DNA of 51,983 bases from Methylotenera sp. (lineage in GTDB: Bacteria > Pseudomonadota > Gammaproteobacteria > Burkholderiales > Methylophilaceae). The stretch is from contig JAHRYP010000019.1 of NCBI GenBank assembly GCA_020622105.1, forward strand, positions 1-51,983, given 5' to 3'. The first letter of the stretch is position 1; every line of letters begins with the position of its first letter. The translations under genes were made by a program, and so were the position numbers. Of the stretch, positions 22,262 to 39,055 are shown piece by piece. Under the pieces are notes generated by a model. The model saw nothing but the letters and a program-made list of their open reading frames with translations, was not told the DNA's origin and did no database searches.

Positions 22262-23215
22262 ATGATTCTATCTAACAGAGTAAATACTTATGGCCAGTTT
22301 CTATTAAAACGCTATGGCAAACGTATCCATAAAGTGGCGCTTGATGCAGGTTTTACTTGTCCAAATCGTGATGGTACAAAAGGAACTGGAGGGTGTACGT
22401 TCTGTAATAATGTTTCGTTCAGTCCGGCTACTGGATCTCGTCTTGATGTCCCAGGTCAAATTGCCAAGGCAAGAGCCGCAATAGCTAAACGTACGCGGGC
22501 TCGTCAGTTTATCGCTTATTTTCAGGCATACACTAACACTTATGCAGACATCGCGGAACTTGAAACTCTCTATCGCGAAGCTTTAGCGCAACCAGATGTG
22601 ATTGGAATTTCAGTTGGTACCCGACCAGACTGTGTATCACCAGCGGTACTTGACCTGCTGGAGACTCTACGTGATGAAGGACTGGAAGTATGGCTGGAAC
22701 TTGGGTTGCAATCGGCGTTCGATGATACGCTGGCTAGGGTCAACCGTGGCCATACATTAGCAGAATATCGCGAGACTGCATTGGCAGCGCGTTCCCGAGG
22801 CATTCCGCTATGCACTCATTTGATTATAGGTCTGCCAGGTGAAAATGAACGCCATTATCATTCTACGCTCGATACCGTTCTGGAAATCGGTGTAGATGGA
22901 CTTAAGCTCCATCCCCTGCACGTAGTTAAGCGCACTATATTGGCTTATCAGTGGCGTCGTGGTGGTTATGAGCCGCTTAGTCAAGTTGACTATATACGCA
23001 TCGCCGCGGATCTGATTGAGCGCACACCCCAACACATCATCTTCCACCGTGTGACTGCAACAGCATCGAAAGATATTTTGCTAGCACCTGAATGGTGTTC
23101 ACAGAAATGGAACATATTAAATGGTATTGAGAAAGAGTTGCGCCAACGCGGCACCCGCCAGAGTAGTCGCGCCGGAGTAGATCACATAATAAAGGATATG
23201 CAATATGTCTCTTGA
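22262..23215 (+). CDS. Radical SAM protein of the YhcC family (TIGR01212-like)
   Basis: About 317 residues. The radical SAM cysteines lie in the family-specific pattern FTCPNRDGTKGTGGCTFC near the N-terminus, with NVSFSP following, and the body has VIGISVGTRPDCV and LELGLQSAFDDTL, characteristic of YhcC. The function of the family is not established. The ATG at 22262 has GGAG 6 bases upstream; an ATG at 22250 is in frame. It overlaps the start of ubiU by 11 bases, so it is translationally coupled to the oxygen-independent ubiquinone genes and may supply a modification used there. Confidence 0.9.
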   Translation: MILSNRVNTYGQFLLKRYGKRIHKVALDAGFTCPNRDGTKGTGGCTFCNNVSFSPATGSRLDVPGQIAKARAAIAKRTRARQFIAYFQAYTNTYADIAELETLYREALAQPDVIGISVGTRPDCVSPAVLDLLETLRDEGLEVWLELGLQSAFDDTLARVNRGHTLAEYRETALAARSRGIPLCTHLIIGLPGENERHYHSTLDTVLEIGVDGLKLHPLHVVKRTILAYQWRRGGYEPLSQVDYIRIAADLIERTPQHIIFHRVTATASKDILLAPEWCSQKWNILNGIEKELRQRGTRQSSRAGVDHIIKDMQYVS

Positions 23216-24206
23216 ACTGGTCTGCCCGGCAGGTAATCTGCCAGCACTCAAGGCGGCTGTAGACAACGGGGCCGACTGTGTTTACATGGGTTTCCGTAAC
23301 AGCACCAACGCACGCGCCTTTGCCGGTTTGAATTTCGATAACGAAACCGCCAAACAAGGGATTCGCTACGCCCATGATCGTAGCTGCAAAGTACTACTGG
23401 CACTTAATACGTATCCGCAAACTGCGGAATCTCATATATGGAAGCAGGCGGTGGATGATGCGGCTGAACTAGGCATCGATGCTCTGATTTTGGCTGATCT
23501 TGGCCTGATGCGCTATGCCAGCCGCACTTATCCTGATTTACGGTTGCATCTCTCAGTGCAGGGCTCTGCGACTAATTACGAGGCGATAAATTTCTACTAC
23601 GAGCATTTTGACATTCAACGTGCTGTACTGCCACGCGTGCTATCGCTGGCACAGGTCGAGAACGTCGTAAAAAACACGTCGGTTGAGATTGAGTTGTTCG
23701 GCTTCGGCGGATTATGCGTGATGGTGGAGGGTCGCTGCATACTATCGTCCTATGCCACTGGCGAATCGCCTAACACTGCAGGAGTATGCTCTCCGGCTAA
23801 AGCTGTACGCTGGCAACAAACGCCAAATGGACTGGAATCACGATTGAATGGCGTGTTACTGGATAAATACAGTGCTAACGAGAATGCCGGCTATCCAACC
23901 TTGTGCAAAGGTCGTTTCGAAGTTGAAGATGAAATATATTACGCTTTGGAAGAACCAACCAGCCTCAACACACTAGAATTGATCCCAGACATGTTGCGCA
24001 TTGGAATCAGCGCCATCAAGATTGAAGGTCGTCAGCGCAGCCCCGTCTATGTTGAACAAGTGACGCGTGTATGGCGAGCAGCTATTGATGCAGCGAAACA
24101 AGATGCAGCGCATTATGTAGCTAAAGAGGACTGGATGACACAGCTAGGCAAACTTTCGGAGGGGCAGCAACATACGCTTGGCGCCTATTATCGTCCATGG
24201 AAATAA
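23205..24206 (+). CDS. ubiU: Oxygen-independent ubiquinone hydroxylation protein UbiU
   Basis: A U32-peptidase-family protein that, with UbiV, performs the O2-independent hydroxylations of ubiquinone synthesis using a [4Fe-4S] cluster. The N-terminus MSLELVCPAGNLPALKAAVDNGAD is the family signature. The cluster cysteines are visible in FGGLCVMVEGRCILSSYATGES, then AGVCSPAKAVRW and LCKGRFE. The 333 residues match E. coli YhbU. It forms a heterodimer with UbiV, whose gene follows after 4 bases. Confidence 0.93.
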   Translation: MSLELVCPAGNLPALKAAVDNGADCVYMGFRNSTNARAFAGLNFDNETAKQGIRYAHDRSCKVLLALNTYPQTAESHIWKQAVDDAAELGIDALILADLGLMRYASRTYPDLRLHLSVQGSATNYEAINFYYEHFDIQRAVLPRVLSLAQVENVVKNTSVEIELFGFGGLCVMVEGRCILSSYATGESPNTAGVCSPAKAVRWQQTPNGLESRLNGVLLDKYSANENAGYPTLCKGRFEVEDEIYYALEEPTSLNTLELIPDMLRIGISAIKIEGRQRSPVYVEQVTRVWRAAIDAAKQDAAHYVAKEDWMTQLGKLSEGQQHTLGAYYRPWK

Positions 24207-24210
24207 TATT

Positions 24211-25107
24211 ATGAAAATCTCTTTGGGCCCTATTCTCTATTACTGGACTCGTCAAAGCGTGCTGGATTTCTACGAGCAGGTTGTCAATTGGCCAGCAGAC
24301 ATTGTCTATTTAGGCGAAGTGGTTTGTTCACGTCGCCATGAAATGCGCTTCGGTGACTGGTTAGATGTGGCCAGTAAATTGTCTGCCGCTGGCAAAGAAG
24401 TGGTCTTGTCCACGCAGGCACTGCTAGAGTCCGAATCTGACCTTAAAATGTTACGTCGCCTTACTGGTAGTGGCCAGTTCTGCATAGAAGCCAACGATAT
24501 AGGAGCTGTACGCCTATCCACAGGCAAGCCATTTGTCGTTGGACCCCACATTAACACTTACAACGGTGAGACGCTCGCAATACTTGCAGAGCAGGGAGCA
24601 ACCCGCTGGGTCATGCCAGTAGAATTGTCGCGTTATATGCTGGCTGAGCTACTAGTGAAAAAACCTCAAGGTATGGAAACTGAAGTGTTTGCTTATGGTC
24701 GTTTGCCATTGGCTTTCTCTTCACGTTGTTTTACTGCCCGGCGCCATAATCTGCCTAAAGATGATTGTCATTTTAAGTGTCTGGAGCATCCTTGCGGCAT
24801 GACACTTAAAACACGTGAGGGGCAGTCATTTTTGGCATTAAATGGAACGCAGACTCAATCTGCCAGCATTCATAATTTGATCAGCGAGATCGACGACATG
24901 CGTCAATTGGGTGTCGACGTTGTGCGTATCAGCCCGCAACCGGATCATACTGGTGAAGTAGTCGCAGCATTCAGGGCTGCGATTGATAATATAGTGAGCA
25001 GCAGTGAAGCACAGACTGCGCTTGCATCATTCCTGTTTGATGATCCATGTGATGGATATTGGCATGGACTATCTGGTATTGAACAATCAATTAAGATGCT
25101 GTCATGA
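24211..25107 (+). CDS. ubiV: Oxygen-independent ubiquinone hydroxylation protein UbiV
   Basis: Second U32-family subunit, 298 residues from the ATG at 24211 (MKISLGPILYYW). Conserved cysteines of the [4Fe-4S] site are in YLGEVVCSRRHEMR and in SSRCFTARRHNLPKDDC / FKCLEHPCGM. It overlaps ubiT by 4 bases (ATGA). UbiU-UbiV acts with UbiT to hydroxylate the ring with prephenate as oxygen donor in E. coli. A longer reading to 24178 would overlap ubiU and has no ribosome site. Confidence 0.93.
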   Translation: MKISLGPILYYWTRQSVLDFYEQVVNWPADIVYLGEVVCSRRHEMRFGDWLDVASKLSAAGKEVVLSTQALLESESDLKMLRRLTGSGQFCIEANDIGAVRLSTGKPFVVGPHINTYNGETLAILAEQGATRWVMPVELSRYMLAELLVKKPQGMETEVFAYGRLPLAFSSRCFTARRHNLPKDDCHFKCLEHPCGMTLKTREGQSFLALNGTQTQSASIHNLISEIDDMRQLGVDVVRISPQPDHTGEVVAAFRAAIDNIVSSSEAQTALASFLFDDPCDGYWHGLSGIEQSIKMLS

Positions 25108-25574
25108 GCCCAAAAATCTACACATTTCCACCTCAGCTAGGTAAATTAATTGAACATCTGCCAACATGGCCTTCATCTTTCACCTTTGCCTGTGTGCTTG
25201 ATCTGGCGCTACGTCAAGTTATTCGTCGAGGTGACCTGCAAGCGCTGTATGGAAAACGGATTGCAATACACGTCACAGATGCCGGACTACGTTTGCACTT
25301 CACTGTGCTGAACAGTGGCTTTTCAGCCGCTAAGGGCAATCTGATTCCAGACCTCATAATTAGTGCTAGTGCCTATGATTTTTATCTGCTGGCGATGCGT
25401 AAGGAGGATCCTGACACCCTGTTTTTTAATCGACGACTGCTGGTGGAAGGCGATACAGAACTGGGATTGGTCGCCAAGAATACGCTGGATGCCATTGAGT
25501 ATCCAATACTCAAGCTTAAATGCGTATCCCCATTAGACTTGTTGAAAACGATGAAAAAAAGACTGTGGATATAA
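25104..25574 (+). CDS. ubiT: Ubiquinone biosynthesis accessory protein UbiT (SCP2 domain)
   Basis: 156 residues with an SCP2 lipid-binding fold (ALYGKRIAIHVTDAGLRLHFTV ... PDLIISASAYDFYLLAMRKEDPDTLFFNRRLLVEGDTELGL). The run DPDTLFFNRRLLVEGDTEL is characteristic of UbiT/YhbT. It carries hydrophobic ubiquinone intermediates in the anaerobic pathway, replacing aerobic UbiJ. It overlaps the ubiV stop. The DGC-protein gene starts 52 bases further on. Confidence 0.92.
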   Translation: MSPKIYTFPPQLGKLIEHLPTWPSSFTFACVLDLALRQVIRRGDLQALYGKRIAIHVTDAGLRLHFTVLNSGFSAAKGNLIPDLIISASAYDFYLLAMRKEDPDTLFFNRRLLVEGDTELGLVAKNTLDAIEYPILKLKCVSPLDLLKTMKKRLWI

Positions 25575-25626
25575 TCGCGACCATGCACTTTAGTTTTGAC
25601 CCACTTAGATGAAAGGAGCTATTCGT

Positions 25627-26040
25627 ATGAGCAAAAAAAATGTAAATTTGCCTATAGTATATTCCTGTTCCGGCTGCTCCAGTGTGGCGCAAATGGCAAA
25701 TTATATTGCGTTAGAACTCGACAAACGGGGTTTAGCGGAAATGTCCTGCATTGCGGGAGTAGGTGGAAACGTGCCGCACTTGGTGAAAATTGCACATTCT
25801 GGCCGCCCAATTGTTGCACTTGATGGTTGCCCCCTCGCTTGCACTAAAGCTTGTCTGGCTAAACATGACATAGAACCGGACAGCTACCATCTGCTGAACC
25901 AGTATGGTGTGAAAAAAATCTATCATACGGGCTTCGATTCCGATATGGCGCAAGCTGTACTTGAGCTAGTAATTACAAAAATGGATGAAGAATTGCCTTC
26001 GCTACCCTCTACCCCATGCTCACTAAACCCAAACGACTGA
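25627..26040 (+). CDS. Cys-rich DGC-domain putative zinc-binding protein
   Basis: 137 residues from the ATG at 25627, which has AAGGAG 10 bases upstream; an in-frame ATG at 25609 contains that ribosome site itself. Conserved motifs are IVYSCSGCSSVAQMANYIA, SCIAGVGGN and LDGCPLACTKACL, giving the D-G-C signature of the putative zinc-binding (DGC/DUF1847-like) family. Function is unknown. Its end overlaps ubiX by 25 bases, so it is embedded in the ubiquinone operon. The Cys motifs might hold Zn or an Fe-S cluster and could serve UbiUV; inference only. Confidence 0.85.
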   Translation: MSKKNVNLPIVYSCSGCSSVAQMANYIALELDKRGLAEMSCIAGVGGNVPHLVKIAHSGRPIVALDGCPLACTKACLAKHDIEPDSYHLLNQYGVKKIYHTGFDSDMAQAVLELVITKMDEELPSLPSTPCSLNPND

Positions 26041-28110: not shown

Positions 28111-28210
28111 TCATTCTTAATACATAACATGTATATTTTAAGAATACTTTAAGTTGTTTTAGTAATAATTATCAGTAAATGTAAGTACTATTTAAAAGGA
28201 TAAATTGAAT

Positions 28211-28726
28211 ATGCTGACTGCAGCTTTTTTATGGAGAGGCATTAACTTATTAAGCGCTCTATGTCTGATATTGGTTACCACACCGGCCTATGCGAATGAA
28301 CACCAACACAAACATCAAAGTCAATCAAACGCAGAGCCATCTATGCACGTTTTGAAACCAGGTGAAAAATGGAAAACAGATGAAGTGGTGAAGCTAGGAA
28401 TGAACAATATTCGCCAAGCCATTTCTGCCAGACAAAATGATATTATTAAAGGACGCCTTAGCGCTAATGATTATCATCGAATAGCAATTGTGATAGAAAG
28501 AAATGCTGCTGAGATTGTGAGAAATTGCAAATTGGCTAAAGATGCAGATAGTGCGTTTCATAGGGTTGTCTTGGTCGATTTGCTAGATGGTGTGACGCTA
28601 ATGCGAACATCTAAGAACATTCAAGCGCAACGAGTTGGAGCACTAGGCGTGTTACAGTCTTTACGAAATTACGGTAAGTATTTTCAGCACGAGGGATGGA
28701 ATTTAGATGCTGTTAAATCTGATTAA
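28211..28726 (+). CDS. Secreted helical protein of unknown function
   Basis: About 171 residues from ATG 28211 with AAGGA at 28197-28201. A signal peptide (MLTAAFLWRGINLLSALCLI, ending PAYA) is followed by a His-rich linker (NEHQHKHQ) and a helical domain with the motif LKPGEKWKTDEVVKLGMNNIRQAI and one Cys (RNCKLA). No haem CXXCH motif is present. The family was not identified; proteins of this build occur near respiratory genes. The 3' end overlaps the convergent pyrD-like gene by 14 bases. Confidence 0.7.
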   Translation: MLTAAFLWRGINLLSALCLILVTTPAYANEHQHKHQSQSNAEPSMHVLKPGEKWKTDEVVKLGMNNIRQAISARQNDIIKGRLSANDYHRIAIVIERNAAEIVRNCKLAKDADSAFHRVVLVDLLDGVTLMRTSKNIQAQRVGALGVLQSLRNYGKYFQHEGWNLDAVKSD

Positions 28727-29615
28727 CAACTCCAAAATTTGACAGGTAAGCATTAATTCGCCTTGGCAATAAAGGCCCTGCCTCGACGAGTCCACTATAA
28801 ATCTGCACAAGTGAGACACCAGTTGATAAGCGGTCAACAACATCCTGCGGGGTACGAATTCCTCCCACTGAAATAACTGGCATGCTGTCACGCGTCTTAT
28901 TTAACACGCGTTGCAAATTGGCAAGCACTTCTTTTTTATCATGGATATGCTCATCACCACTCAGAATCAATCCATTAAATGCATAATCACGCACACAGGA
29001 TAATAGATTATTTGTATCTCCACGATTCTGATCAATTTTTACAACAATAGGACAAACCCGACCACTCTCAGCCGCCATCAGCACTTGCTTGTCCTTGGCC
29101 GCTGCCAGTAAGGTCAACAATGTGGCACGAAACTCTGGTTGATGCAGATCGGGTCCGGCTCGTACACCTAAATTAAGAGTTATGTAGTCGGCAAACTCCC
29201 AGAGTTTTTCCATGCATATCATATAATCGTTGACCATCTTTTCAGGCTGGGTTATGCGGTTCATGCTGATGCTCACCCCAAGTGGAATTGAATGTGGTCT
29301 GATATTTTTAGATAAATGGGAAACTACCCTATCGAGTCCCAGGCTACGCTGCTGCTCTGGCAGTGGAATAACAGAACCAATTTCTGCAAAACCAAAACCA
29401 AGCGGTGCTAAGCAGCTAAAGAGCGTGCCATGTTTATCAAATCCAGCTGCCAGCCCAACTGGGCCTGGGAAAGATAATCCCATGACATTTCGCCGCAAGG
29501 TTTGCGGCGTTTCTACTCTAGAAGTGATCGCGGCTAGCCAAATTGAATGTGCTGCCAGTTTGCGAGCATTTGGCATACCCAGTTTAGATGCGGCTGAAAA
29601 TAGACACTTATACAT
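28713..29615 (-). CDS. Divergent PyrD-like protein (class 2 dihydroorotate dehydrogenase fold) in the pqq operon
   Basis: About 300 residues from ATG 29615, next to a TTG at 29636. The N-terminal GPVGLAAGFDKHG, FGFAEIGSVIPLPEQ and the C-terminal PVISVGGIRTPQDVVDRLSTGVSLVQIYSGLV (FMN phosphate site) are those of quinone-linked dihydroorotate dehydrogenase. The substrate and catalytic parts are not: the family's LINRMGFNN run is replaced by GVSISMNR, and NVSSPNTPGLR with the catalytic Ser reads LNLGVRAGPDLH. It is therefore a paralogue, unlikely to make orotate. It follows serC with a small overlap, as the last gene of the pqqADE operon. Confidence 0.8.
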   Translation of the reverse strand: MYKCLFSAASKLGMPNARKLAAHSIWLAAITSRVETPQTLRRNVMGLSFPGPVGLAAGFDKHGTLFSCLAPLGFGFAEIGSVIPLPEQQRSLGLDRVVSHLSKNIRPHSIPLGVSISMNRITQPEKMVNDYMICMEKLWEFADYITLNLGVRAGPDLHQPEFRATLLTLLAAAKDKQVLMAAESGRVCPIVVKIDQNRGDTNNLLSCVRDYAFNGLILSGDEHIHDKKEVLANLQRVLNKTRDSMPVISVGGIRTPQDVVDRLSTGVSLVQIYSGLVEAGPLLPRRINAYLSNFGVVNQI

Positions 29616-30711
29616 GATGCCAATGCATATCTGCAAAATGCTGCATAAAGCTGATGAGTGCTATTACACCAGCGTTTGGCATTGCATTATAGATGCTGGC
29701 GCGAATGCCACCAGCCATGGGATGACCCTTCAGATTCAACAATCCTTCTTCAGCAGCTAAGGACAGAAACGATGGCGTGAGCGCATCATTAGCGAGCGTA
29801 AAGCAAACATTCATACATGATCGGTGGGCTGGTTGCACTGAACATTGATAAAAACCTTTGCTGGAATCAATGACTTGATACAATTGCGCACTTCGCTGCG
29901 CACTGTTATTCGCCATAGCCACGACACCACCCATGTCGGTAATCCAGCGTAGTACCAATCCAGTTAAATAGATAGAAAAGGTCAACGGCGTATTAAGCAT
30001 AGAACCTGCTTCAGCCTGATTCTTATAATTGAATACCGCTGGCGTTGCTGGATGTGCCCGCCCCAGCAGATCATCGCGCACAATGACAATGGTAAGACCA
30101 GCTGGACCGATATTTTTTTGCGCTCCTGCGTAAATTACACCATAGCGCTGCACATCAATCGGCCGGCTGAGAAAGTCAGATGTCATATCTGCAACTAGTG
30201 GCAAATCACCGGTGTCTGGAATGTCAAAGAATTGCACGCCGTTGGCGGTTTCATTGCTTGTAATGTGGCAATAGGCTGCACTTGAGTCGAGGTGCCATGT
30301 TTCGGGCATTCGGTCGAATCTGGTTGCACTACTACTGGCTGCAATATTGACATTACAGTAGCGGCTAGCTTCGAGCATAGTTTTGCATGACCAGTAGCCA
30401 GTTTCCACATAATCAGCTCGCCCTGCCCCACCCAATAGATTTAGTGGTATCAGCGAGAATTGTGCCGACGCACCGCCATGCATAAATAAAATATGATAAT
30501 TGTCTGGAATATTTAGCAGTAATCGAAGATTGTCGCGCACATGATTATGTATTTTCTTGTAAGCGTCACCGGTAAAAGGCGTTTCTAACATGGAAAAACC
30601 ACTGTCGTTCCAGTTCAAAAACTCCTGCTGCGCTTGGGCCAGAACAGTGACTGGCATAACGGCTGGGCCCGCAGAATAATTAAAAAACTCAGGCAAACAG
30701 TGCCGCTCCAT
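29608..30711 (-). CDS. serC: Phosphoserine aminotransferase (SerC family)
   Basis: 367 residues from ATG 30711 (MERHCLPEFFNYSAGPAVMP); the frame continues upstream but covers the upstream gene. Fold-type I PLP aminotransferase: HGGASAQFSLIPLNLL binds the cofactor phosphate, VADMTSDFLSRPID holds the Asp, YGVIYAGAQKNIGPAGL holds the Schiff-base Lys, and it ends GHPMAGGIRASIYNAMPNAGV as usual. It overlaps the PuuD-like gene by 23 bases. Whether it serves serine synthesis or a step tied to the pqq operon is open. Confidence 0.92.
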   Translation of the reverse strand: MERHCLPEFFNYSAGPAVMPVTVLAQAQQEFLNWNDSGFSMLETPFTGDAYKKIHNHVRDNLRLLLNIPDNYHILFMHGGASAQFSLIPLNLLGGAGRADYVETGYWSCKTMLEASRYCNVNIAASSSATRFDRMPETWHLDSSAAYCHITSNETANGVQFFDIPDTGDLPLVADMTSDFLSRPIDVQRYGVIYAGAQKNIGPAGLTIVIVRDDLLGRAHPATPAVFNYKNQAEAGSMLNTPLTFSIYLTGLVLRWITDMGGVVAMANNSAQRSAQLYQVIDSSKGFYQCSVQPAHRSCMNVCFTLANDALTPSFLSLAAEEGLLNLKGHPMAGGIRASIYNAMPNAGVIALISFMQHFADMHWHHV

Positions 30712-31192
30712 GCTGGCTGGCTGCCATGAAAAACAACAATGGGATGGAGAGCATGGTATTGGTACGAGAAGAAAGAAATGTGATGCGAGCACAACGTACA
30801 CGCTCGTCAAGTGGTGCGTAAACGAAACCTAGCACTTTCTTCTGGTTTGGCCATAATATCAGCCATAGGTTAGCCAGCATCAGCGTGCCTATCCAAAAAC
30901 CAATGCCGATAACGGCCAGATAGCCTTTCAACGTTATTGCATCAATCAGCACTCCACGTTGCCACAACATACCAACACCAGCCAACCAAGTTACGATAGC
31001 CGCGTATCTGAAAGTGCCGTGTTCACGTCCGAGCAAAGTCATATAAACAGTGCTTTGCTCGTCGCCCAAATCTTCTTTCCCGGGTGGTCGGAAGTTTGGT
31101 CGCTGAATCACGCTGGCGTAGTTATGCCCAACCCAAATTATGCCGGCAAAAAGATGTATCCAGCGAAGTAAAAAGTCGACAATCTGATCCAT
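30689..31192 (-). CDS. PuuD-like (urate hydroxylase N-terminal domain type) membrane protein
   Basis: 167 residues with four hydrophobic helices. The start MDQIVDFLLRWIHLFAGIIWVGHNY resembles the N-terminal membrane domain of PuuD-type proteins, with histidines in the first helix that could bind haem. There is no C-terminal cytochrome c domain, so full urate hydroxylase activity is unlikely. It starts 6 bases after the 33-residue membrane peptide and overlaps serC. A redox role linked to PQQ or methylotrophy is speculation from context. Confidence 0.75.
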   Translation of the reverse strand: MDQIVDFLLRWIHLFAGIIWVGHNYASVIQRPNFRPPGKEDLGDEQSTVYMTLLGREHGTFRYAAIVTWLAGVGMLWQRGVLIDAITLKGYLAVIGIGFWIGTLMLANLWLILWPNQKKVLGFVYAPLDERVRCARITFLSSRTNTMLSIPLLFFMAASQHGAALFA

Positions 31193-31198
31193 CGTGTA

Positions 31199-31300
31199 TC
31201 AACCTCTCAACACTAGCCAGCGGACGATGAAGAATAGTCCCAGTGTTAGCAACAGACCGAGCACGATCGTACCGGTGGCAGTATTGTAAGGTGTTTTCAT
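31199..31300 (-). CDS. 33-residue single-span membrane peptide coupled to pqqE
   Basis: The ATG (complement 31298-31300) overlaps the pqqE stop TGA as ATGA, and the stop lies 6 bases before the PuuD-like start. The peptide is MKTPYNTATG, a hydrophobic stretch TIVLGLLLTLGLFFIV, and a basic end RWLVLRG. It shows the build of small membrane subunits. The tight coupling on both sides argues that it is translated; no family was recognised and no other evidence is available. Confidence 0.6.
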   Translation of the reverse strand: MKTPYNTATGTIVLGLLLTLGLFFIVRWLVLRG

Positions 31301-32445
31301 TTCTGCGCCATAAACATCGTAGTGACTGCTCCAATTTGCCGCCTGACCAAGGGGCGAGGCTCGTGATGTTTCTGTCGTGTCTTGCTGATTGCCATTTCAA
31401 TCACATGGTGATGTGGTGATTTGGCGCATGCAGGATCGGTATTCGTTGCATCGCCGGTCAGCAGAAATGCCTGGCAGCGACAGCCACCAAAGTCTTTTTC
31501 TTTTTCGTCACAGGTGCGGCAAGGCTCCTTCATCCACTCATCACTACGGAATTTCTTGAACAGTGGTGAGTCATTCCACAACCAGTCCAGACTATGCTCA
31601 CGCACAGTAGGAAATTCCAGCCCTTCGATTACACGAACTTCCTGGCAAGGTAAAGCAGCACCGTCTGGTGCAATGGTGAGATGAATGGTGCCCCAGCCAT
31701 TCATGCATGCCTTAGGCCGTGTTTCGTAATAATCCGGAATAACAAAATAAATGGTCATCTTCTGCCCTGACCGTTGACGCGCAGCATTAACAGCAGCTTC
31801 GGCAAGCTCAATCTGCTCACGGGTCGGCAGCAACTCATCTCGATTGAGCAGCGCCCAGTTGTAATACTGAATATTGGCAAGTTCAAGATAATCTACGCCG
31901 ATGTCCTCAGCTAATGCCAGAATTTTATCCACCTGGTCAATGTTCTGTCTGAATATCGGCACATTGAGTACCATAGGGAAGCCTTCAGCTTTGATCATAC
32001 GCGCTACTTCAACTTTCAGATCATGCGCTCTTGCTCCTACCAGTTCATCGGTTAAGTCACGATTTGCAGATTGCAGACTTAATTGAATCTGCTTGAGACC
32101 TACTTGCTTCAGCGCTTTAAGTCGTTCAGGTGTTAGTCCAACACCGGAAGTAATAAGATTAGTGTAATAGCCCAGGCGCTCCGCCTCTGCCACCAACTCT
32201 TCGATATCATCGCGTAACATGGGCTCGCCACCTGAAAACCCAAGTTGCAGGGCACCGAGTTCGCGCCCCTCACGAAGTACCCGCTTCCATTCCTCGGTAC
32301 TCAACTCTTTCTTGCCATACTGGTCAAAATCTAGTGGATTATTACACCACACACACTTGAGCGGGCAACGGTAGGTAAGTTCTAACACAAGCCACATTGG
32401 CTTGCCTTGCCCGTCCAGACTAACTTCGAATCCATCCTTTGCCAT
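31297..32445 (-). CDS. pqqE: PqqA peptide cyclase (radical SAM)
   Basis: PqqE cross-links Glu16 and Tyr20 of PqqA, the first step of PQQ synthesis, with PqqD as peptide chaperone. The 382 residues have the radical SAM motif CPLKCVWC near 29-36, GFSGGEPML as SAM site, and a C-terminal SPASM region with ALPCQEVR, then CRTCDEKEKDFGGCRC and DPACAKSPHH. Start ATG 32445 overlaps the pqqD end by 26 bases. Confidence 0.97.
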   Translation of the reverse strand: MAKDGFEVSLDGQGKPMWLVLELTYRCPLKCVWCNNPLDFDQYGKKELSTEEWKRVLREGRELGALQLGFSGGEPMLRDDIEELVAEAERLGYYTNLITSGVGLTPERLKALKQVGLKQIQLSLQSANRDLTDELVGARAHDLKVEVARMIKAEGFPMVLNVPIFRQNIDQVDKILALAEDIGVDYLELANIQYYNWALLNRDELLPTREQIELAEAAVNAARQRSGQKMTIYFVIPDYYETRPKACMNGWGTIHLTIAPDGAALPCQEVRVIEGLEFPTVREHSLDWLWNDSPLFKKFRSDEWMKEPCRTCDEKEKDFGGCRCQAFLLTGDATNTDPACAKSPHHHVIEMAISKTRQKHHEPRPLVRRQIGAVTTMFMAQK

Positions 32446-32704
32446 GTGTTATCTCCAAAAATTTGTAAATACTGTTTTCTATATCAGCGTTGTAGACAAA
32501 TAGCGCCTTGAGTTCGGTAGCGATATTAGCGGTCGTAGATTCGCCCGTGCAGCGCTTAAGGATTTCCGCAGCTGTAGTATTTAGCTTGATAACGCCCTCA
32601 GGGTAGAGCAGTACATAGGCATCCTGTGACTTCTCCCAACGCAGTAGATACTTGGAATCCAGTCGCGGGCGGTCTTCTGGCTGAAAATGAAAATGCTCAG
32701 ACAT
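32420..32704 (-). CDS. pqqD: PqqA-binding chaperone PqqD
   Basis: 94 residues of the PqqD/RRE fold: PRLDSKYLLRWEKSQDAYVLLYPEGVIKLNTTAAEILKRC matches the family closely. It binds PqqA and presents it to PqqE. It follows pqqA, from which it is separated by a strong stem-loop. Confidence 0.96.
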   Translation of the reverse strand: MSEHFHFQPEDRPRLDSKYLLRWEKSQDAYVLLYPEGVIKLNTTAAEILKRCTGESTTANIATELKALFVYNADIENSIYKFLEITHGKGWIRS

Positions 32705-32729
32705 ATAAAGACTTTCTTATTTTAATTAT

Positions 32730-32752
32730 GGACGCGGCAAAATGCCGCGTCC
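32730..32752 (-). promoter_or_regulatory. Stem-loop between pqqA and pqqD
   Basis: GGACGCGGCA and TGCCGCGTCC form a perfect 10-bp stem around a 3-base loop. No long T-run follows on the minus strand, so it is more likely a partial terminator or RNA-stabilising hairpin that raises pqqA over pqqDE expression, as known for other pqq operons. Confidence 0.75.
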
Positions 32753-32760
32753 TGTATTAC

Positions 32761-32835
32761 CTAGCGCACGTACACGTAGGCGGTTACTTCAAAGCCAAGA
32801 CGTAGATCACAAAAATCTGGTTCGATCCATTGCAT
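32761..32835 (-). CDS. pqqA: PQQ precursor peptide PqqA
   Basis: A 24-residue peptide starting MQWIEPDFCD, with Glu16 and Tyr20 in FEVTAYVYVR at exactly the spacing (E-X3-Y) that is cross-linked into PQQ. AGGAG lies 7-12 bases before the ATG. It is the first gene of the pqqA-D-E operon. Confidence 0.96.
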   Translation of the reverse strand: MQWIEPDFCDLRLGFEVTAYVYVR

Positions 32836-33306
32836 TTTTATCTCCTAAAACGTTAGTTGAAGTTGGTGCCGCAAGCGATGGAAGAAGCTAAAATTAAAAC
32901 CACCATTGCAATTAGCGTTGCATATGTAATAGTTACAATGCGACACTGAATATACGTTATGGTTAATAAAAGGGATTGCTCAAATTACTGGTCATTGCAT
33001 GCTTAATATGATTAAAAACATGTCATGATTTTCTGTCATTTTCTGTTAATCAGAACAATTTGATTTTGGTCAAGGTGTTTGTACGAGCAATGGTGCTTAG
33101 AACTAGGAATAACTGCTCCAAACACCCATTAAATGCTGCTTTAATGGCTTAGTGACTTTTGAAAATTACTTTTTGGTGCGCAGAGAATGGTTGTTGGATG
33201 GATGATTGTGAATGTAACGTCACCATGCACTGCAACTTGCTTTTTGTGTCATATGGCAAATAATACAGAGGTGATTGCTTTAAAGCTTGAACAAGCATTA
33301 AGACTG
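32836..33306. other. Upstream region of pqqA
   Basis: 470 bases between pqqA and the polytopic membrane protein gene, both on the minus strand. It should hold the pqq promoter. A one-mismatch FNR-type box is at 33060-33073. A 17-codon hydrophobic frame at 32853-32906 was not called. Confidence 0.5.
33060..33073. promoter_or_regulatory. Imperfect FNR/DNR-type box upstream of pqqA
   Basis: TTGATTTTGGTCAA differs at one position from TTGAT-N4-ATCAA. It is about 230 bases upstream of the pqqA ATG, rather far for direct activation unless the leader is long. Confidence 0.4.
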
Positions 33307-34434
33307 TTACTCAGGTATCTTAGTATGCTGTAAAAATAAAGAAAATGTCTGAACAACAAATATACCTGTAGTAAACACTGCTAAATACCAGCCAATTTCA
33401 TAGCCAAATCCAGCCATTACCCCTCCTGTCAATAACAACAATGCTCGTATACCACCTCCAAATCCCAATCGCTTCCTGGCTGCCTGATGCCAGGGCGTTT
33501 GTTGCCCTGGACGCATCCATAATGGCAGCAAATAACTGACAGCACCCGTCACGAGCGGCATTAGAAAGGCGATAATGAAAGTCGCAACCGGGCTAAAGCT
33601 TTGTTGATGATAGGCGTGAGTTAATCCGATAATTAAGGTTATTGAATATCCACACAGGGCTGCTACAAGTAATGGGACAGCGCCATGTACCTTGAATATG
33701 ACATTAGAATAAAGTTTTAGCCATGTCTTTAATATATCGAATAACGGGATAGCCAGCAATATCAGTCCAATCCATGCAAAATTGCGGTGCCATGCGGAAC
33801 CACAGGCCGTGATCACAATTCCGGCGACTACGCATTTCAGATGTTTACGCATGCGTGCAGCTACTTCAGGATCAGAGCGTTGCGTGACTGTGGGCAGCAG
33901 CACTTGCAGTGTGCCGAGTGCTGTGATGCCAATAAATCCCAAGGTGTTGAAGTGGATGTGCAGCATACGCAATGCAGAGCGCTGTTCGGGAATAAAATAA
34001 CCCATGATTATGCAACCAACTGCTATAAATATGCATAACATGGCTGCCAGATACCAATCTAGACAAGGGTGTGGTTTACCAATCGCATTTACTTTTAAGC
34101 GATATGCCCAACTCCCAAGAATTGACACTGCAATAATGATAGTAGTAGCACTGACATAGCGACCAGCTGACAATGCTTGTGGATAAGCAAAATTACTGGT
34201 GACTAAGAAACCTCCGAACAGTGCTATAACAGGTAACAACCTAATAAATTTACCTGGATTTTTACTGCGCGATAACACAGGTAAGAAATGCACCATCGCT
34301 CCTAATATCAAAGGTACGATGCCTATAGCTAAAACAATGTGGTAACTGACAATCGCCGCACCGCTCTTTGACAAAACAAAGGTAGATGCAGCGATAAACG
34401 CCAGTAGAGTAATTGCTACTTGAAATTGCAGCAA
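33307..34434 (-). CDS. Polytopic membrane protein, NnrS/haem-copper-oxidase subunit-like
   Basis: 375 residues with about eleven hydrophobic helices. Histidines recur within or next to helices (IVSYHIVLAIG, LGAMVHFLPV, MLHIHFNTLGFIGITALG, ITLIIGLTHAYH), the look of small oxidase-subunit-I or NnrS relatives that bind haem or copper. The neighbours, a DUF2249 protein 17 bases upstream and nsrR/dnr divergently, indicate a role in nitric oxide metabolism. The exact family was not confirmed. Confidence 0.6.
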   Translation of the reverse strand: MLQFQVAITLLAFIAASTFVLSKSGAAIVSYHIVLAIGIVPLILGAMVHFLPVLSRSKNPGKFIRLLPVIALFGGFLVTSNFAYPQALSAGRYVSATTIIIAVSILGSWAYRLKVNAIGKPHPCLDWYLAAMLCIFIAVGCIIMGYFIPEQRSALRMLHIHFNTLGFIGITALGTLQVLLPTVTQRSDPEVAARMRKHLKCVVAGIVITACGSAWHRNFAWIGLILLAIPLFDILKTWLKLYSNVIFKVHGAVPLLVAALCGYSITLIIGLTHAYHQQSFSPVATFIIAFLMPLVTGAVSYLLPLWMRPGQQTPWHQAARKRLGFGGGIRALLLLTGGVMAGFGYEIGWYLAVFTTGIFVVQTFSLFLQHTKIPE

Positions 34435-34450
34435 AGTTGATTCCTAGAGC

Positions 34451-34708
34451 TTATGTGCGAACGAAATCAATCACAATCGTCCCAGGTTCACGTTGCTTAT
34501 AAACAATACTGACAGTTTCACCATATCGCTGCTCAAGCTGATTCAAAAGCGGCAATGGATCGTGATCATTGACGAAACGCATAATTTCACCGCTATGCAA
34601 CGTGTCTAACGCACCGAAGATAGCTGCATGTCGAAATCGCTTGGCTATGCCGCGCGCATCGAATGGATAAATCTGATCTGGAAGTAGATGAAGATGTGGC
34701 TGTGACAT
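34451..34708 (-). CDS. DUF2249 domain protein
   Basis: 85 residues from ATG 34708 with AAAGGT about 7 bases upstream. The sequence PFDARGIAKRFRHAAIFGALDTLHSGEIMRFVNDHDPLPLLNQLEQRYG is the DUF2249 pattern (TusA-like fold: DxR, GE, HDPxPL). Such proteins often accompany NO-reductase and hemerythrin genes and are NsrR or DNR targets. It is followed closely by the polytopic membrane protein gene. Confidence 0.88.
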   Translation of the reverse strand: MSQPHLHLLPDQIYPFDARGIAKRFRHAAIFGALDTLHSGEIMRFVNDHDPLPLLNQLEQRYGETVSIVYKQREPGTIVIDFVRT

Positions 34709-34893
34709 GTGTTTACCTTTCAAGGAATAAGCGCAACGTCTGCGCAAAAGTTCTAATAATCATGTTCATCATCAATTGAATTCACATAAAAATATTCATC
34801 GCTATGGGTTATCAATCACTCGCAAAATAACCTTTCAATACATCTATTCAATTGAAAAAAGCAGTTAATTGTAAGTTTTAATGGACATTCTAT

Positions 34894-34916
34894 AAGGTGT
34901 ATGTAAAATACATCTT
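34894..34916. promoter_or_regulatory. NsrR-type operator in front of nsrR
   Basis: The half-sites AAGGTGTAT and ATACATCTT, 5 bases apart, form a near-perfect palindrome of the betaproteobacterial NsrR type (AAGATGYAT-N5-ATRCATCTT). It lies 64 bases upstream of nsrR and 186 upstream of the divergent DUF2249 gene, so NsrR probably represses its own gene and perhaps the divergent pair. Confidence 0.8.
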
Positions 34917-34979
34917 TAATTTACCATGATATTTATTCATAAGCAATATTATTAATACATCTTTTAACGGACTGAAATT

Positions 34980-35429
34980 ATGCACCTTACAAATTTCTCT
35001 GATTACTCAATTCGAGTAATGATTTACTTAGGTCTCCAGAAATCTAAGTTGGCAACAATTTCTGATATAGCAAGAGCATATGAAATTTCTGAAAACCACT
35101 TAACCAAGGTAGTGCATCAATTGGCACAGCGCGGATATATAGAAACTGTTCGCGGTAAGGGCGGCGGTTTACGTCTGGTACGAAAACCAGATACGGTGAA
35201 TATTGGTGAAATGATTCGATATTCTGAAGGTAACACAGCGTTGTTACCATGTATGGATAATGAAGAAAGCTGTTGTATACGACCTAATTGCAAATTGATG
35301 GGGATTCTGCGAGAAGCGCAGGTTGCACTATTTACTGTGCTAGATAAGTACACCTTGGCGGATTTACTACAACAGGAAGCGCCGTTGACCCACATCCTTA
35401 TGCAACCAAAGACTTTAAAAGCAGTTTAA
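34980..35429 (+). CDS. nsrR: Rrf2-family nitric oxide-sensing repressor NsrR
   Basis: 149 residues: winged helix with MHLTNFSDYSIRVMIYLGLQ and ISENHLTKVVHQLAQRGYIETVRGKGGGLRL, then the Fe-S region with Cys91, Cys98/99 and Cys104 (LPCMDNEESCCIRPNCKL). These features are those of NsrR, in which NO destroys the cluster and releases target promoters. The operator at 34894-34916 indicates autoregulation. The dnr-like gene follows 126 bases on. Confidence 0.93.
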   Translation: MHLTNFSDYSIRVMIYLGLQKSKLATISDIARAYEISENHLTKVVHQLAQRGYIETVRGKGGGLRLVRKPDTVNIGEMIRYSEGNTALLPCMDNEESCCIRPNCKLMGILREAQVALFTVLDKYTLADLLQQEAPLTHILMQPKTLKAV

Positions 35430-35555
35430 AAATGTATCTAAACTATCAACAGTTAATAACAATTAATTTAGATTTTTGGTTATATTTTATATATCAAATT
35501 CCAGCAAAGATAAATATCAAATCTGGGCTAAAGCAAGCAAAATAAGGATGCTTCA

Positions 35556-36230
35556 ATGACTAAGACACAGATGGCTGAGCGGTTATCAGAGTTTCACTTA
35601 TTCTCTGATCTTTTCCCCACACAAATTGCTTTATTGACAAACAAGACTAAGTTTTTAGATGTTTCGCGTGATGCTATTCTGTTTAATCAGAACAAACAAG
35701 CGCATGGATTCTACTTGCTGCTTAAAGGGCAAGTTAAGCTTGGGGTGGCATCTTTAGATGGATCAGAGAAAGTAATCAGATTAATTCAATCAGGACAAAG
35801 CTTTGGTGAGGAGTCTATATTTTCTGATCATACTTTTTCAATGTATGCATATACAGTGAAAGACTCACAGGCTTTGTTAATTTCCAAGGAAGCAATTCTG
35901 GATATTATAGATACAGATGTAAAACTTGCAGGTCGTATGTTGTCAGTATTCTCTACACGAAATTACCAACTGGTTAAGGATATAAAATCTATTTGCTTGC
36001 AGAATAGCACAAAGCGAATAACAGATTATTTATTACAAATTAGCAGAACCTTCACAGGTTCAGATTGTTTTAGACTGCCCACTAATAAAACAATAATTGC
36101 ATCTATGCTTAACATTACCCCAGAAACTTTTTCACGTGTCATGCAAAAGCTACAAAATGCGGGGCTTATTACAGTTAATGGTAAAGATATTGTAATTAAT
36201 AATGTTTCGGGATTACATGATTTCAAATAA
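35556..36230 (+). CDS. dnr: Crp/Fnr-family regulator, DNR-like
   Basis: 224 residues. It has an N-terminal cyclic-nucleotide-binding-like domain (LLLKGQVKLGVASLDGSEKVIRLIQSGQSFGEES) and a C-terminal helix-turn-helix in which TPETFSRVM carries the E-x2-SR residues that read TTGAT half-sites. The N-terminus lacks the Cys cluster of FNR, so it is of the DNR/NnrR class, which senses NO through haem. It could bind the FNR-type boxes in this window, including that upstream of narK1. Confidence 0.85.
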   Translation: MTKTQMAERLSEFHLFSDLFPTQIALLTNKTKFLDVSRDAILFNQNKQAHGFYLLLKGQVKLGVASLDGSEKVIRLIQSGQSFGEESIFSDHTFSMYAYTVKDSQALLISKEAILDIIDTDVKLAGRMLSVFSTRNYQLVKDIKSICLQNSTKRITDYLLQISRTFTGSDCFRLPTNKTIIASMLNITPETFSRVMQKLQNAGLITVNGKDIVINNVSGLHDFK

Positions 36231-36249
36231 TTCAGGGCAAACAGTAAAT

Positions 36250-36328
36250 TTTTAAGCCTCATAAGAGTTTTCATCATATTAACTATAAAAGAATGCTTGA
36301 TTTTCACCTGATGATATGAGGCTTAAAA
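36250..36328. terminator. Long inverted repeat between dnr and the frameshifted gene
   Basis: TTTTAAGCCTCAT (36250-36262) and ATGAGGCTTAAAA (36316-36328) are perfect complements. Inside, TCATCA (36271-36276) pairs with TGATGA (36309-36314). The A- and T-runs at both ends and the convergent genes suggest a bidirectional terminator with a large loop, though a small structured RNA is possible. Confidence 0.55.
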
Positions 36329-36332
36329 GTGT

Positions 36333-36639
36333 CTACTGCATCTTGGTCGATTCACACAAAGATTTAAACGCGCTTCTAAGACTTGTTGGGGTTATTGAGT
36401 CAGCTGCATAGCTTTTAAGATCTGTATGTAGATATATTTTTTTCCCGAGATATGGATCTTCATAAAAAAATACAACATTGCCAGGATGCGTTTTTTTGCT
36501 TAGCACCTGCCCCCACATGTTTCTCATTAGTACATCCAAAGTTATCATCACGTTTCTGATATGTTTCCCACAAAAAATGCTTAAAGTTATCTTTTGAGAT
36601 TTTGGCTGCAATTTCGCCAATATTGATAGTTTCTGCCAT
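36333..36639 (-). pseudogene. Conserved hypothetical protein, frameshifted at an A7 tract
   Basis: The gene starts at 36639 (MAETINIGEIAAKISKDNF, KHFLWETYQKRDDNF) and shifts at the run of seven A (36491-36497), then continues SKKTHPGNVVFFYEDPYLGKK and IYLHTDLKSYAADSITPTSL to a stop at 36333. Removing one A joins the frames into ~101 residues. The protein family was not recognised with certainty; the well-preserved sequence on both sides of the shift suggests a recent event or an error. It may be only the N-terminus of a longer ancestor. Confidence 0.65.
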
Positions 36640-36695
36640 AAATAACCATAATTTTATTATTAATACTCATTAAGAATCTGTCAGGTTTATATGAA

Positions 36696-36727
36696 TTTGT
36701 CACTTAAGCGCTCGTAAGCGCGACAAA
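36696..36727. terminator. Possible stem-loop downstream of norB
   Basis: TTTGTC (36696-36701) pairs with GACAAA (36722-36727), and inside GCGCT pairs with AGCGC, with a left bulge of about six bases. It lies about 90 bases beyond the norB stop and may end its transcript. Confidence 0.4.
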
Positions 36728-36814
36728 TCAGCCATTCTGACTGGCTAAGTATGGTTAAAAAGCGTTTCGTAAGCTAGTGGCGATTCAATTTTAAGAAAAT
36801 TTCATGCTCAAGTT

Positions 36815-39055
36815 TTATGCTTTATTAAAATAAAGCCCTTTCAAAACTTGCCAGCTCACCGCAAGGGCGCCAACAATAAACACTAAATCTCCAACTGTTC
36901 TAACCCAGCGTAAAGTACTCATAATAGGTTGCTGCATAAAAACCTCACTACGTGCGTACCATAAGCCTTTTGATGCGCTGGCAAAAAATTGGATGATGCC
37001 TATCGGTAAAAGACTGGTAAAAAGCATTAAAACGAGTCCAAAATTTAGCCACCAAAATCCTGTCCTCATCCACTTGTCGCTCAACACAAAATCAGGGCGA
37101 ATGTACCGCAGAATCAGCAATGTAAAACCAAGGGCTAGGAAACCATAAACTCCAAATAAAGCACCATGAGCATGCGTTGCTGTGGTATTAAGACCTTGTA
37201 TATAGTAAAGGGAAATTGGCGGATTAATCATAAATCCAAATACGCCTGCACCAAGCATATTCCAAAAGGCTACTGCTACAAAAAACAAGAGCGGCCATTT
37301 AATCCTTTCCATCCATGTTGCACGCTCTTTAAGCCGCCAATTTTCCCAAGCTTCATAACCCAACACCACGAGTGGCACGACTTCTAGCGCACTAAATGTG
37401 GCACCAATTGCCATTACTGGTGTTGTGGTGCCTGAAAAGTAAAGATGGTGAAAAGTTCCAGGAATTCCGCCCAACATAAATAAAGATGCCGATGCCAATG
37501 CAGCTGATGTTGCCAGTGTGCGTGACACCAGTCCCATGCTACAAAAGATGAAAGCTAGCGCTGTTGTTGCAAAAACTTCAAAGAAGCCTTCAACCCACAA
37601 ATGCACCACCCACCAACGCCAATATTCCATGACTGAAAGATGTGTTCGCTCACCATAAAACAAACCAGCGCCATAAAATAAGCCAATTGCTACAACGGAT
37701 GCAGTTAGCAAGGCTAAAAGATTTTTATCGCCGGGTTTTCTTAACACTGGCGCAATGCAGCGCATCATTAAAATCAGCCATAGAACGATGCCTACAAATT
37801 TACCAATTTGCCATAAGCGACCTAAATCGACATATTCATAACCTTGATGACCGAGCCAGAAATTCCATTGCGGCGGCATAATTTGTGCGATTGCATAAAA
37901 GTTGCCGATAAATGATCCTATCACTACCAATATTAAGGCCCAAAATAATATATCTACACCAATTTTTTGATAATTTGGATCTTTGCCACCATTAATAATT
38001 GGAGCAAGAAACAAACCTGCTGCCAGAAACCCCGTGGCAATCCAAAACAATGCTGCTTGAATGTGCCAAGTCCGCACTAAACTATAAGGTAACCATTTTG
38101 ATGTATTTATACCGTAAAAGCTTTGCCCTTCAATAGTGTAGTGTGCAGTAAATCCACCTAGAAATACTTGAAGGGTGAACAATGCGATCACAACTAAAAG
38201 ATACTTGCCTAAAGATTTTTGCGATGGTGTAAGGCTAAGTGTTGAAATTGGATCTGCAATAGGTGCATTAATATTTTCTTCATCCTGCTTTCGTAAAAAC
38301 GCCCAACCCCATACCAAAGCCCCCACACCGGCAATCAGGACCACAATGCTAATAATTGACCAAACGATATTTTCAGCAGTTGGTTTATTATCAATTAGCG
38401 GTTCATGCGGCCAGTTGTTGGTGTAAGTAGCACCATTTGGGTATCGCTCAGTTGCAGCTGCCCACGCGGTCCAAAAGAAAAACTCCGTTAACCTTAAACG
38501 ACGTTCTTCATCGGTCAAGGTGACTTCTTTCATTGCGTAGTTTTTTCGTGTGTTCGTTAATGACTTATCGCCGCCAAAAAGTTGATTATAGTATTGCGCT
38601 GTTTGCACGATTGCTTTTCCACGCCGCTCACTGACTACTAACGTGTCTTTTTCAAGTGTGTATCCGTTGGTTCTATAATCTTGTTTCAGGGCATACTGTA
38701 TAGCGTTTTTCTCAGTACCGTTCAAGCTGTCATATGACTGTCCATATTGCTCTTGCGCGGCAAGGTTGAGCCATGCAATGAGTTCGCGATGTAGCCAATC
38801 TGCAGTCCAGTCTGGCGCTTGATAAGCCCCATGCCCCCATACTGAACCCAGTTGCATACCACCAACAGATTGCCATGCTGTTTGACCGTCTAAAATGCGT
38901 TCTTTGCTGGTAATTACACTGCCGTTTGCTGTGATCACTTGGGCAGGAATTGGTGGTGCTTTGCGATAAACTTCTACGCCTAAATACCCTAGCAATGAAA
39001 ATGTAATTGCTACGATACTAATAAGTATTATCCAATGCTTGCGATACTGTCCCAT
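36815..39055 (-). CDS. norB: Quinol-dependent nitric oxide reductase (qNOR)
   Basis: A 746-residue single-subunit enzyme reducing 2 NO to N2O with quinol. The N-terminal ~220 residues replace NorC but lack the CXXCH haem motif, the hallmark of qNOR. The oxidase-type core has the ligands in LVRTWHIQAALFW, WVVHLWVEGFFEVF (FeB His with the Glu), PGTFHHLYFSG (His pair) and TATHAHGALFGVYG. About 14 membrane helices. norC is absent, as expected. It may be controlled by NsrR or the DNR-like protein, though no clear operator was seen directly upstream. Confidence 0.97.
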   Translation of the reverse strand: MGQYRKHWIILISIVAITFSLLGYLGVEVYRKAPPIPAQVITANGSVITSKERILDGQTAWQSVGGMQLGSVWGHGAYQAPDWTADWLHRELIAWLNLAAQEQYGQSYDSLNGTEKNAIQYALKQDYRTNGYTLEKDTLVVSERRGKAIVQTAQYYNQLFGGDKSLTNTRKNYAMKEVTLTDEERRLRLTEFFFWTAWAAATERYPNGATYTNNWPHEPLIDNKPTAENIVWSIISIVVLIAGVGALVWGWAFLRKQDEENINAPIADPISTLSLTPSQKSLGKYLLVVIALFTLQVFLGGFTAHYTIEGQSFYGINTSKWLPYSLVRTWHIQAALFWIATGFLAAGLFLAPIINGGKDPNYQKIGVDILFWALILVVIGSFIGNFYAIAQIMPPQWNFWLGHQGYEYVDLGRLWQIGKFVGIVLWLILMMRCIAPVLRKPGDKNLLALLTASVVAIGLFYGAGLFYGERTHLSVMEYWRWWVVHLWVEGFFEVFATTALAFIFCSMGLVSRTLATSAALASASLFMLGGIPGTFHHLYFSGTTTPVMAIGATFSALEVVPLVVLGYEAWENWRLKERATWMERIKWPLLFFVAVAFWNMLGAGVFGFMINPPISLYYIQGLNTTATHAHGALFGVYGFLALGFTLLILRYIRPDFVLSDKWMRTGFWWLNFGLVLMLFTSLLPIGIIQFFASASKGLWYARSEVFMQQPIMSTLRWVRTVGDLVFIVGALAVSWQVLKGLYFNKA

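Follow-up and report, generated by a model that had tools for sequence, protein, structure and literature searches.

The analyzed window covers 51,983 nucleotides of contig JAHRYP010000019.1 from Methylotenera sp. (Methylophilaceae; GenBank assembly GCA_020622105.1). It contains a seven-gene cluster (28713–32835) in which homologs of pqqA, pqqD and pqqE, genes of pyrroloquinoline quinone (PQQ) biosynthesis, run into four additional genes, here called the tail. All seven genes are encoded on the minus strand, with open reading frames and proper stops. In the direction of transcription, they are:

32761–32835, minus strand: pqqA2, a 24-residue precursor of an alternative type, GFEVTAYVYVR (translation)
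32420–32704, minus strand: pqqD2, peptide chaperone (TIGR03859, 81.6 bits, cut-off 46)
31297–32445, minus strand: pqqE2, radical S-adenosylmethionine (SAM)/SPASM enzyme of an alternative clade (TIGR02109, 502 bits, cut-off 381)
31199–31300, minus strand: 33-residue membrane peptide with a single helix, between pqqE2 and puuD2 (translation)
30689–31192, minus strand: puuD2, a short four-helix DUF989 membrane protein resembling the N-terminal part of PuuD (PF06181)
29608–30711, minus strand: serC2, a protein with the fold of aminotransferases dependent on pyridoxal 5'-phosphate (PLP) (SerC-like)
28713–29615, minus strand: pyrD2, a protein with the fold of flavin mononucleotide (FMN)-dependent dihydroorotate dehydrogenase (PyrD-like)

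From pqqD2 through pyrD2, adjacent genes overlap or almost touch, and the ATG of the peptide overlaps the stop codon of pqqE2 (ATGA). Translations and profile matches bear out the gene content and order that the first-pass annotation had given for this region, including this overlap. PqqD2 remains below the cut-off of a second profile, NF002535 (85.8 bits, cut-off 101).

A Second Set of PQQ Genes

The genome (2.5 Mb, 53 contigs, 96% complete) also codes for canonical PqqA, PqqB, PqqC, PqqD and PqqE (pqqABCDE, contig C18). Canonical serC is found on C18 and canonical pyrD on C48. The genes in the window are therefore a paralogous second set. The first-pass annotation described pqqB and pqqC as absent; this is correct for the window but had to be rejected for the genome, as both are on C18. 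It had left two options, pqqB and pqqC being encoded elsewhere or the pathway after the cross-link being different. Both seem to hold: the two genes are on C18, and the pathway appears to be completed differently by the tail, without oxygen.

PqqA2, PqqD2 and PqqE2 presumably have the same roles as their canonical counterparts, given that PqqE2 and PqqD2 pass TIGR02109 and TIGR03859. The glutamate and tyrosine of the GFEVTAY motif are present in PqqA2, and GFEVTAYV is common to the full-length PqqA of alpha-, beta- and gammaproteobacterial clusters; the canonical PqqA of the source genome reads GFEVTMYVMNK at the position of GFEVTAYVYVR. PqqE2 has the radical SAM motif CxxxCxxC (CPLKCVWC) and the SPASM domain. 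In a PqqE tree, 16 alternative rows form one side of a branch with a support of 100/99, versus 17 canonical rows, which include canonical copies from several carrier genomes. In contrast to canonical pqqABCDE, the second operon codes for a PqqE of a separate clade and lacks pqqB and pqqC (except for a hybrid operon in Sedimenticola, see below), having the peptide, PuuD2, SerC2 and PyrD2 instead.

The Tail Proteins

(a) The 33-residue peptide has counterparts in all 16 complete clusters (see below). They are very divergent in gamma- and alphaproteobacteria, where several were recognized by eye.

(b) PuuD2 (167 residues) shares the DUF989 membrane core with PuuD, the cytochrome c urate oxidase, which oxidizes a heterocycle and whose electrons are suggested to go to cytochrome c (PMC4562309). 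PuuD has an eight-helix DUF989 domain followed by a C-terminal cytochrome c domain with a CxxCH motif. PuuD2, in contrast, consists of a core with four main helices alone and is devoid of CxxCH. His23 and His58 are histidine in 16 of 16 cluster rows, and both positions are leucine in 28 of 28 other short DUF989 proteins, in an alignment made up of short proteins. An AlphaFold2 model shows four helices (mean predicted local distance difference test (pLDDT) score 82.7) and puts His23 into the final third of helix I and His58 where helix II begins. By analogy to the PuuD topology (PMC4562309), the two residues would face a loop on the cytosolic side.

(c) SerC2 passes the NCBIfam cut-offs of NF003764 and TIGR01364. 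Lys195, which we take to be the PLP-binding lysine, Arg332, presumably the arginine contacting the alpha-carboxylate, and His325 are retained in all 17 copies examined. Position 41, a histidine in canonical SerC, is Phe in every copy; position 42, canonically Arg, is Thr, Ser or Gly; and position 326, also canonically Arg, is Pro, Ser, Val, Ala or Gly (each 17/17). The phosphate ligands of phosphoserine aminotransferase are His41, Arg42, His327 and Arg328 (PMC12011608), and we took positions 325 and 326 of SerC2 as the equivalents of 327 and 328 in that numbering. SerC2 thus has the PLP lysine and the carboxylate arginine, but not the phosphate-site residues, of a phosphoserine aminotransferase.

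(d) PyrD2 scores above the cut-off of Pfam DHO_dh but below every listed NCBIfam cut-off for pyrD. The equivalent of Lys219, which we assume to be the FMN-binding lysine, is retained in 17 of 17 copies. The catalytic serine is lost in 16 of 17 and is Val in the window copy. In class II dihydroorotate dehydrogenase, this serine is the catalytic base (PMC8520639), so that PyrD2 has the FMN lysine, but not the catalytic serine, of this class.

Judged by their residues, "serC" and "pyrD" are names of family resemblance, both proteins having lost defining residues. The two enzymes appear re-purposed: their housekeeping sites are lost, and the PLP and FMN residues are kept.

Distribution, Gene Order and Selection

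When PuuD2 was searched against 187 Methylophilaceae genomes, 117 had some match. Ten were called carriers, nine with at least 68% PuuD2 identity and one with a partial match at 84% (G159). The remaining matches have 37–59% identity, with short pieces at the top, values typical of other short DUF989 proteins. When the phylum was sampled evenly with 398 genomes, only two of these had a clear cluster PuuD2 (at least 250 bits versus at most 132), the source genome included.

Twenty clusters were pooled from the family search, a scan of genome contigs, plasmid searches and the phylum draw. Ten are from Methylophilaceae. L096 (a metagenome-assembled genome, MAG), L109, L119, L121, L122, L124 and L135 are gammaproteobacterial, and G225 belongs to the same GTDB class as the source genome but to a different order. 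Two are on alphaproteobacterial plasmids, Methylovirgula pHY1 (L146) and a 45.8-kb mobilizable plasmid of Acidibrevibacterium (L145). As the clusters of G016 and G149 are near-identical, these counts refer to genomes and not to independent events.

The arrangement exceeds what chance would give: 16 of the 20 clusters, across alpha-, beta- and gammaproteobacteria, have all seven genes in the order A-D-E-peptide-PuuD-SerC-PyrD, with some divergent peptides recognized by eye. Three of the incomplete clusters are cut at contig ends, and that of the Methylovirgula plasmid has no detectable peptide. The first-pass annotation had named unlinking of the tail from pqq in relatives as evidence against a joint system; the tail stays linked across the three proteobacterial classes. 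The cluster genes are under purifying selection. The ratio of nonsynonymous to synonymous substitution rates (dN/dS) between the window and L082 is 0.03–0.13 for six genes; against L048, it is 0.05–0.19 for five genes and 0.38 for the peptide, which has 0.09 against L082.

Toxin-antitoxin genes are located on the same plasmid as the Acidibrevibacterium cluster (L145, 10328–15589), and a gene for an M48 metalloprotease, which might release the cross-linked dipeptide, comes next after the cluster. On Methylovirgula pHY1, the pqq cluster is preceded by genes annotated as a second radical SAM peptide system (cbpA/cbpB) and a Crp/Fnr regulator (L146, 6980–9829).

Evidence on the Product

A hybrid arrangement is found in the Sedimenticola thiotaurini MAG BK-3. 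Its operon reads pqqB-pqqC-pqqA2-pqqD2-pqqE2-peptide-puuD2-serC2-pyrD2, with a gene for an M48-like protease (assigned by eye) behind it. BK-3 has only one PqqE match at an E-value of 1e-50, versus two in 15 of the 18 carrier genomes searched; G159, where the cluster is cut, also has one, and G600 has none. Given the hybrid operon and the single PqqE, the same cross-linked PqqA appears to feed PqqBC as well as the tail. PqqBC and the tail thus probably act on the same intermediate, and such a shared precursor speaks for a single product.

In G225, the cluster is located between pqqBCDE plus an aldehyde-dehydrogenase-like gene (assigned by eye) on one side and a PQQ-dependent quinoprotein alcohol dehydrogenase on the other. 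A match to the quinoprotein alcohol dehydrogenase family is present in all 18 carrier genomes, in 15 of them above the cut-off. The product is most likely PQQ itself, made for methanol or alcohol dehydrogenases.

Anoxic Context and Possible Regulation

The surroundings of the cluster suggest growth without oxygen:

23205–25574, plus strand: ubiU, ubiV and ubiT, for ubiquinone hydroxylation independent of oxygen, neighbors outside the cluster (NF047963, NF047965 and NF047962, all above cut-off)
33060–33073: FNR/DNR-like box TTGATTTTGGTCAA upstream of pqqA2 (motif match)
33307–39055: neighbors of nitric oxide (NO)/denitrification type (open reading frames; DUF2249 by Pfam, the rest by eye)

(a) The window carries narG, with narHJI-like genes recognized by eye, and a gene for UbiD (Pfam) with a UbiX-like gene recognized by eye. 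Genes for nitrate respiration are shared by the hosts: narG is present in the window and in 10 of the 10 family carriers, the source genome among them. Among the 187 Methylophilaceae genomes, UbiV is encoded in 10/10 carriers versus 3/177 others (Fisher test, 2.5e-14) and narG in 10/10 versus 23/177 (8e-9); within the 33 narG-positive genomes, UbiV is encoded in 10/10 carriers versus 2/23 others (7e-7), these p-values ignoring kinship and physical linkage.

(b) UbiU and UbiV act on ubiquinone precursors, not on PqqA. They offer a parallel, being encoded near the cluster and replacing oxygen-dependent hydroxylases for quinone synthesis under anoxic conditions, but belong to protein families unlike those of the tail. 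The placement of ubiUVT relative to the cluster varies among carriers. Carriers G161 (L085) and G159 (L088) have a divergent UbiU (48–49% identity) and UbiV (36%) beside the cluster, and therefore the ubiquinone genes may have a history of acquisition or replacement apart from that of the pqq genes.

(c) The box upstream of pqqA2 matches a motif that we take to be of FNR/DNR type, a site being called when at least 9 of the 10 letters of TTGAT-N4-RTCAA agree. Such a box is located 223–242 bp upstream of pqqA2 in 8 of the 9 beta-type loci scanned and in 7 of 8 in the alignment, where the half-sites are conserved and the spacer is variable; in the remaining locus (G168), it is degenerate. The window holds four distinct TTGATNNNNRTCAA sites (1457, 15671, 21623 and 33060; 7 matches over both strands versus 0.61 expected by shuffles), a pattern that suggests an FNR/DNR-type regulon across the island.

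(d) The labels between 33307 and 39055 that we assign by eye are an NnrS-like protein, Rrf2-like and Crp/Fnr-like regulators and a NorB-like protein. The NnrS-like gene (33307–34434, a 375-residue membrane protein) is directly upstream of the cluster and has no Pfam or NCBIfam match; 36815–39052 has no match in NCBIfam, the one collection searched for it. At the other end, a gene convergent with pyrD2 (28205–28726) codes for a 173-residue protein whose N-terminus resembles a signal sequence; this protein has no Pfam or NCBIfam match and is encoded beside the cluster also in G016, G149 and G154. A small Cys-rich protein (25609–26040, about 140 residues, DGC-like by eye) is encoded between ubiT and ubiX. 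Of the 9 family loci scanned, 7 have a relative close to the cluster or to ubiUVT; none is seen in L084 and L088, both of which are cut.

Proposed Route

We consider it likely that the seven genes serve as a second PQQ operon when the cells respire nitrate under anoxia, with the tail finishing PQQ without oxygen. The chemistry of PqqB and PqqC is held to require oxygen (PMC12423496; PMC11102522). PqqE2, together with PqqD2, would cross-link Glu and Tyr of PqqA2 in an oxygen-independent radical SAM step, as expected from family membership. After proteolysis, the oxygen-using PqqB and PqqC would be bypassed. PuuD2 and the 33-residue peptide may form a membrane-bound oxidase or hydroxylase linked to the respiratory chain, which, by analogy to cytochrome c urate oxidase, would place oxygen from water onto the ring and so replace the oxygen-dependent hydroxylations of PqqB. 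PyrD2, with its FMN, might oxidize the N-CH(COOH)-CH2 ring toward the aromatic pyridine, a reaction chemically near to dihydroorotate oxidation. Least certain is SerC2, which, freed from a phosphate substrate, could use PLP to handle the amino-acid part during ring closure. This assignment of steps is the weakest part of our interpretation.

Somewhat more cautiously, we favor the idea that cross-linked PqqA can be converted to PQQ entirely without oxygen, a minimal DUF989 membrane enzyme and its one-helix subunit, together with the re-purposed SerC2 and PyrD2, taking the place of the oxygen-consuming PqqB and PqqC. These genes would spread as a unit, in part on plasmids, and in one lineage or more would have been fused with pqqBC into a single operon able to complete PQQ both in the presence and in the absence of oxygen.

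Several observations weigh against this interpretation. The whole case is computational, with the biochemistry inferred and the step of each tail enzyme a guess. PqqC is encoded in 17 of the 18 carrier genomes (the other two of the 20 records being plasmids without a chromosome), and therefore the tail usually accompanies the aerobic route. Among these 18 genomes, there is no clean case of natural replacement, that is, a cluster without pqqC: the single carrier without PqqC, Methylophaga sp. OBS4 (G600), is uninformative, as it also lacks a PqqE match at 1e-50 and has its cluster truncated by the end of a contig. The Sedimenticola evidence comes from one MAG, and the Methylovirgula PyrD2 retains the catalytic serine. 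UbiV is physically linked to the cluster in most Methylophilaceae carriers, so that the statistics partly reflect co-transfer and kinship. UbiUV is found in one of six gammaproteobacterial loci, several of them cut at contig ends. The box is present in one of five gammaproteobacterial loci and in one of three further loci (the Acidibrevibacterium plasmid, but neither G225 nor Methylovirgula), and shuffled 600-base upstream stretches hold at least one box-like site in 1–10% of trials per locus.

Alternatives

The cluster could make another redox cofactor from PqqA, akin to PQQ but distinct from it, with an enzyme partner of its own. The alternative PqqE is indeed a separate lineage (100/99), the conserved residues around the E-x3-Y core of PqqA2 are peculiar to it, and nearly all carriers (17/18) keep canonical PqqC. 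We nevertheless regard such a cofactor as rather unlikely, since the Sedimenticola hybrid operon shares one ADE set between pqqBC and the tail and since the G225 cluster adjoins pqqBCDE and a PQQ-dehydrogenase gene.

Alternatively, the extra pqqADE may boost PQQ precursor under denitrification, with the tail making an unrelated anaerobic metabolite and being merely co-regulated. That such islands gather unrelated genes is illustrated by the mixed functions of the anaerobic genes nearby (ubiUVT, UbiD/UbiX-like, NO type). The tail, however, follows pqqE immediately and in constant order across alpha-, beta- and gammaproteobacterial lineages and on plasmids while the flanks vary, which makes this proposal very unlikely.

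That SerC2 and PyrD2 are anaerobic isoforms for ordinary serine and pyrimidine biosynthesis is hardly credible and was rejected on the active-site losses: although SerC2 passes NF003764 and TIGR01364 and PyrD2 passes DHO_dh, SerC2 has lost His41, Arg42 and Arg326 (17/17) and PyrD2, which scores below every listed pyrD cut-off, its catalytic serine (16/17), and normal serC and pyrD are encoded elsewhere in the genome.

Relation to Known Systems and Significance

The first-pass annotation considered the locus a candidate for an undescribed system. This view is not supported, as such clusters have already been reported: section 2.9 of PMC12423496 (2025, on Hyphomicrobium) presents pqqAED-puuD-serC-pyrD clusters from a number of denitrifiers, naming Hyphomicrobium, Halomonas sulfidovorans, Stutzerimonas stutzeri, Methylophaga nitratireducenticrescens and Azoarcus sp. 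DN11, and offers the speculation that PQQ is completed there without oxygen. Compared by description, the cluster Hden_0548-0553 of Hyphomicrobium denitrificans has the same layout as the window: a second pqqA/D/E set directly followed by puuD-N-like, serC and pyrD genes, present beside canonical pqqABCDE in a denitrifier and near genes for anaerobic ubiquinone synthesis and NO reduction (PMC12423496). The proposal made for it is the one preferred here. A search of the literature by title and abstract, with most subscription journals outside its scope, found no published test of this proposal. Section 2.9 does not mention the 33-residue peptide, the active-site losses, the FNR-like box, the hybrid operon with pqqBC or Methylophilaceae. 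New here are the Methylotenera member, the peptide, the active-site changes, the hybrid operon and the link to UbiV.

PQQ is held to need oxygen, and it is therefore a persistent puzzle how quinoprotein dehydrogenases can oxidize methanol under strict anoxia. To account for it, PMC11102522 appeals to PQQ carried over or supplied externally, or to dehydrogenases of other kinds. The question lends itself to direct tests, given the conserved unit, the Sedimenticola hybrid and Methylotenera mobilis 13. If the proposal is true, the tail would represent new water-based chemistry for aromatic hydroxylation and ring closure as well as a route for anaerobic PQQ production, and oxygen-free completion of PQQ would help to explain methanol-driven denitrification.

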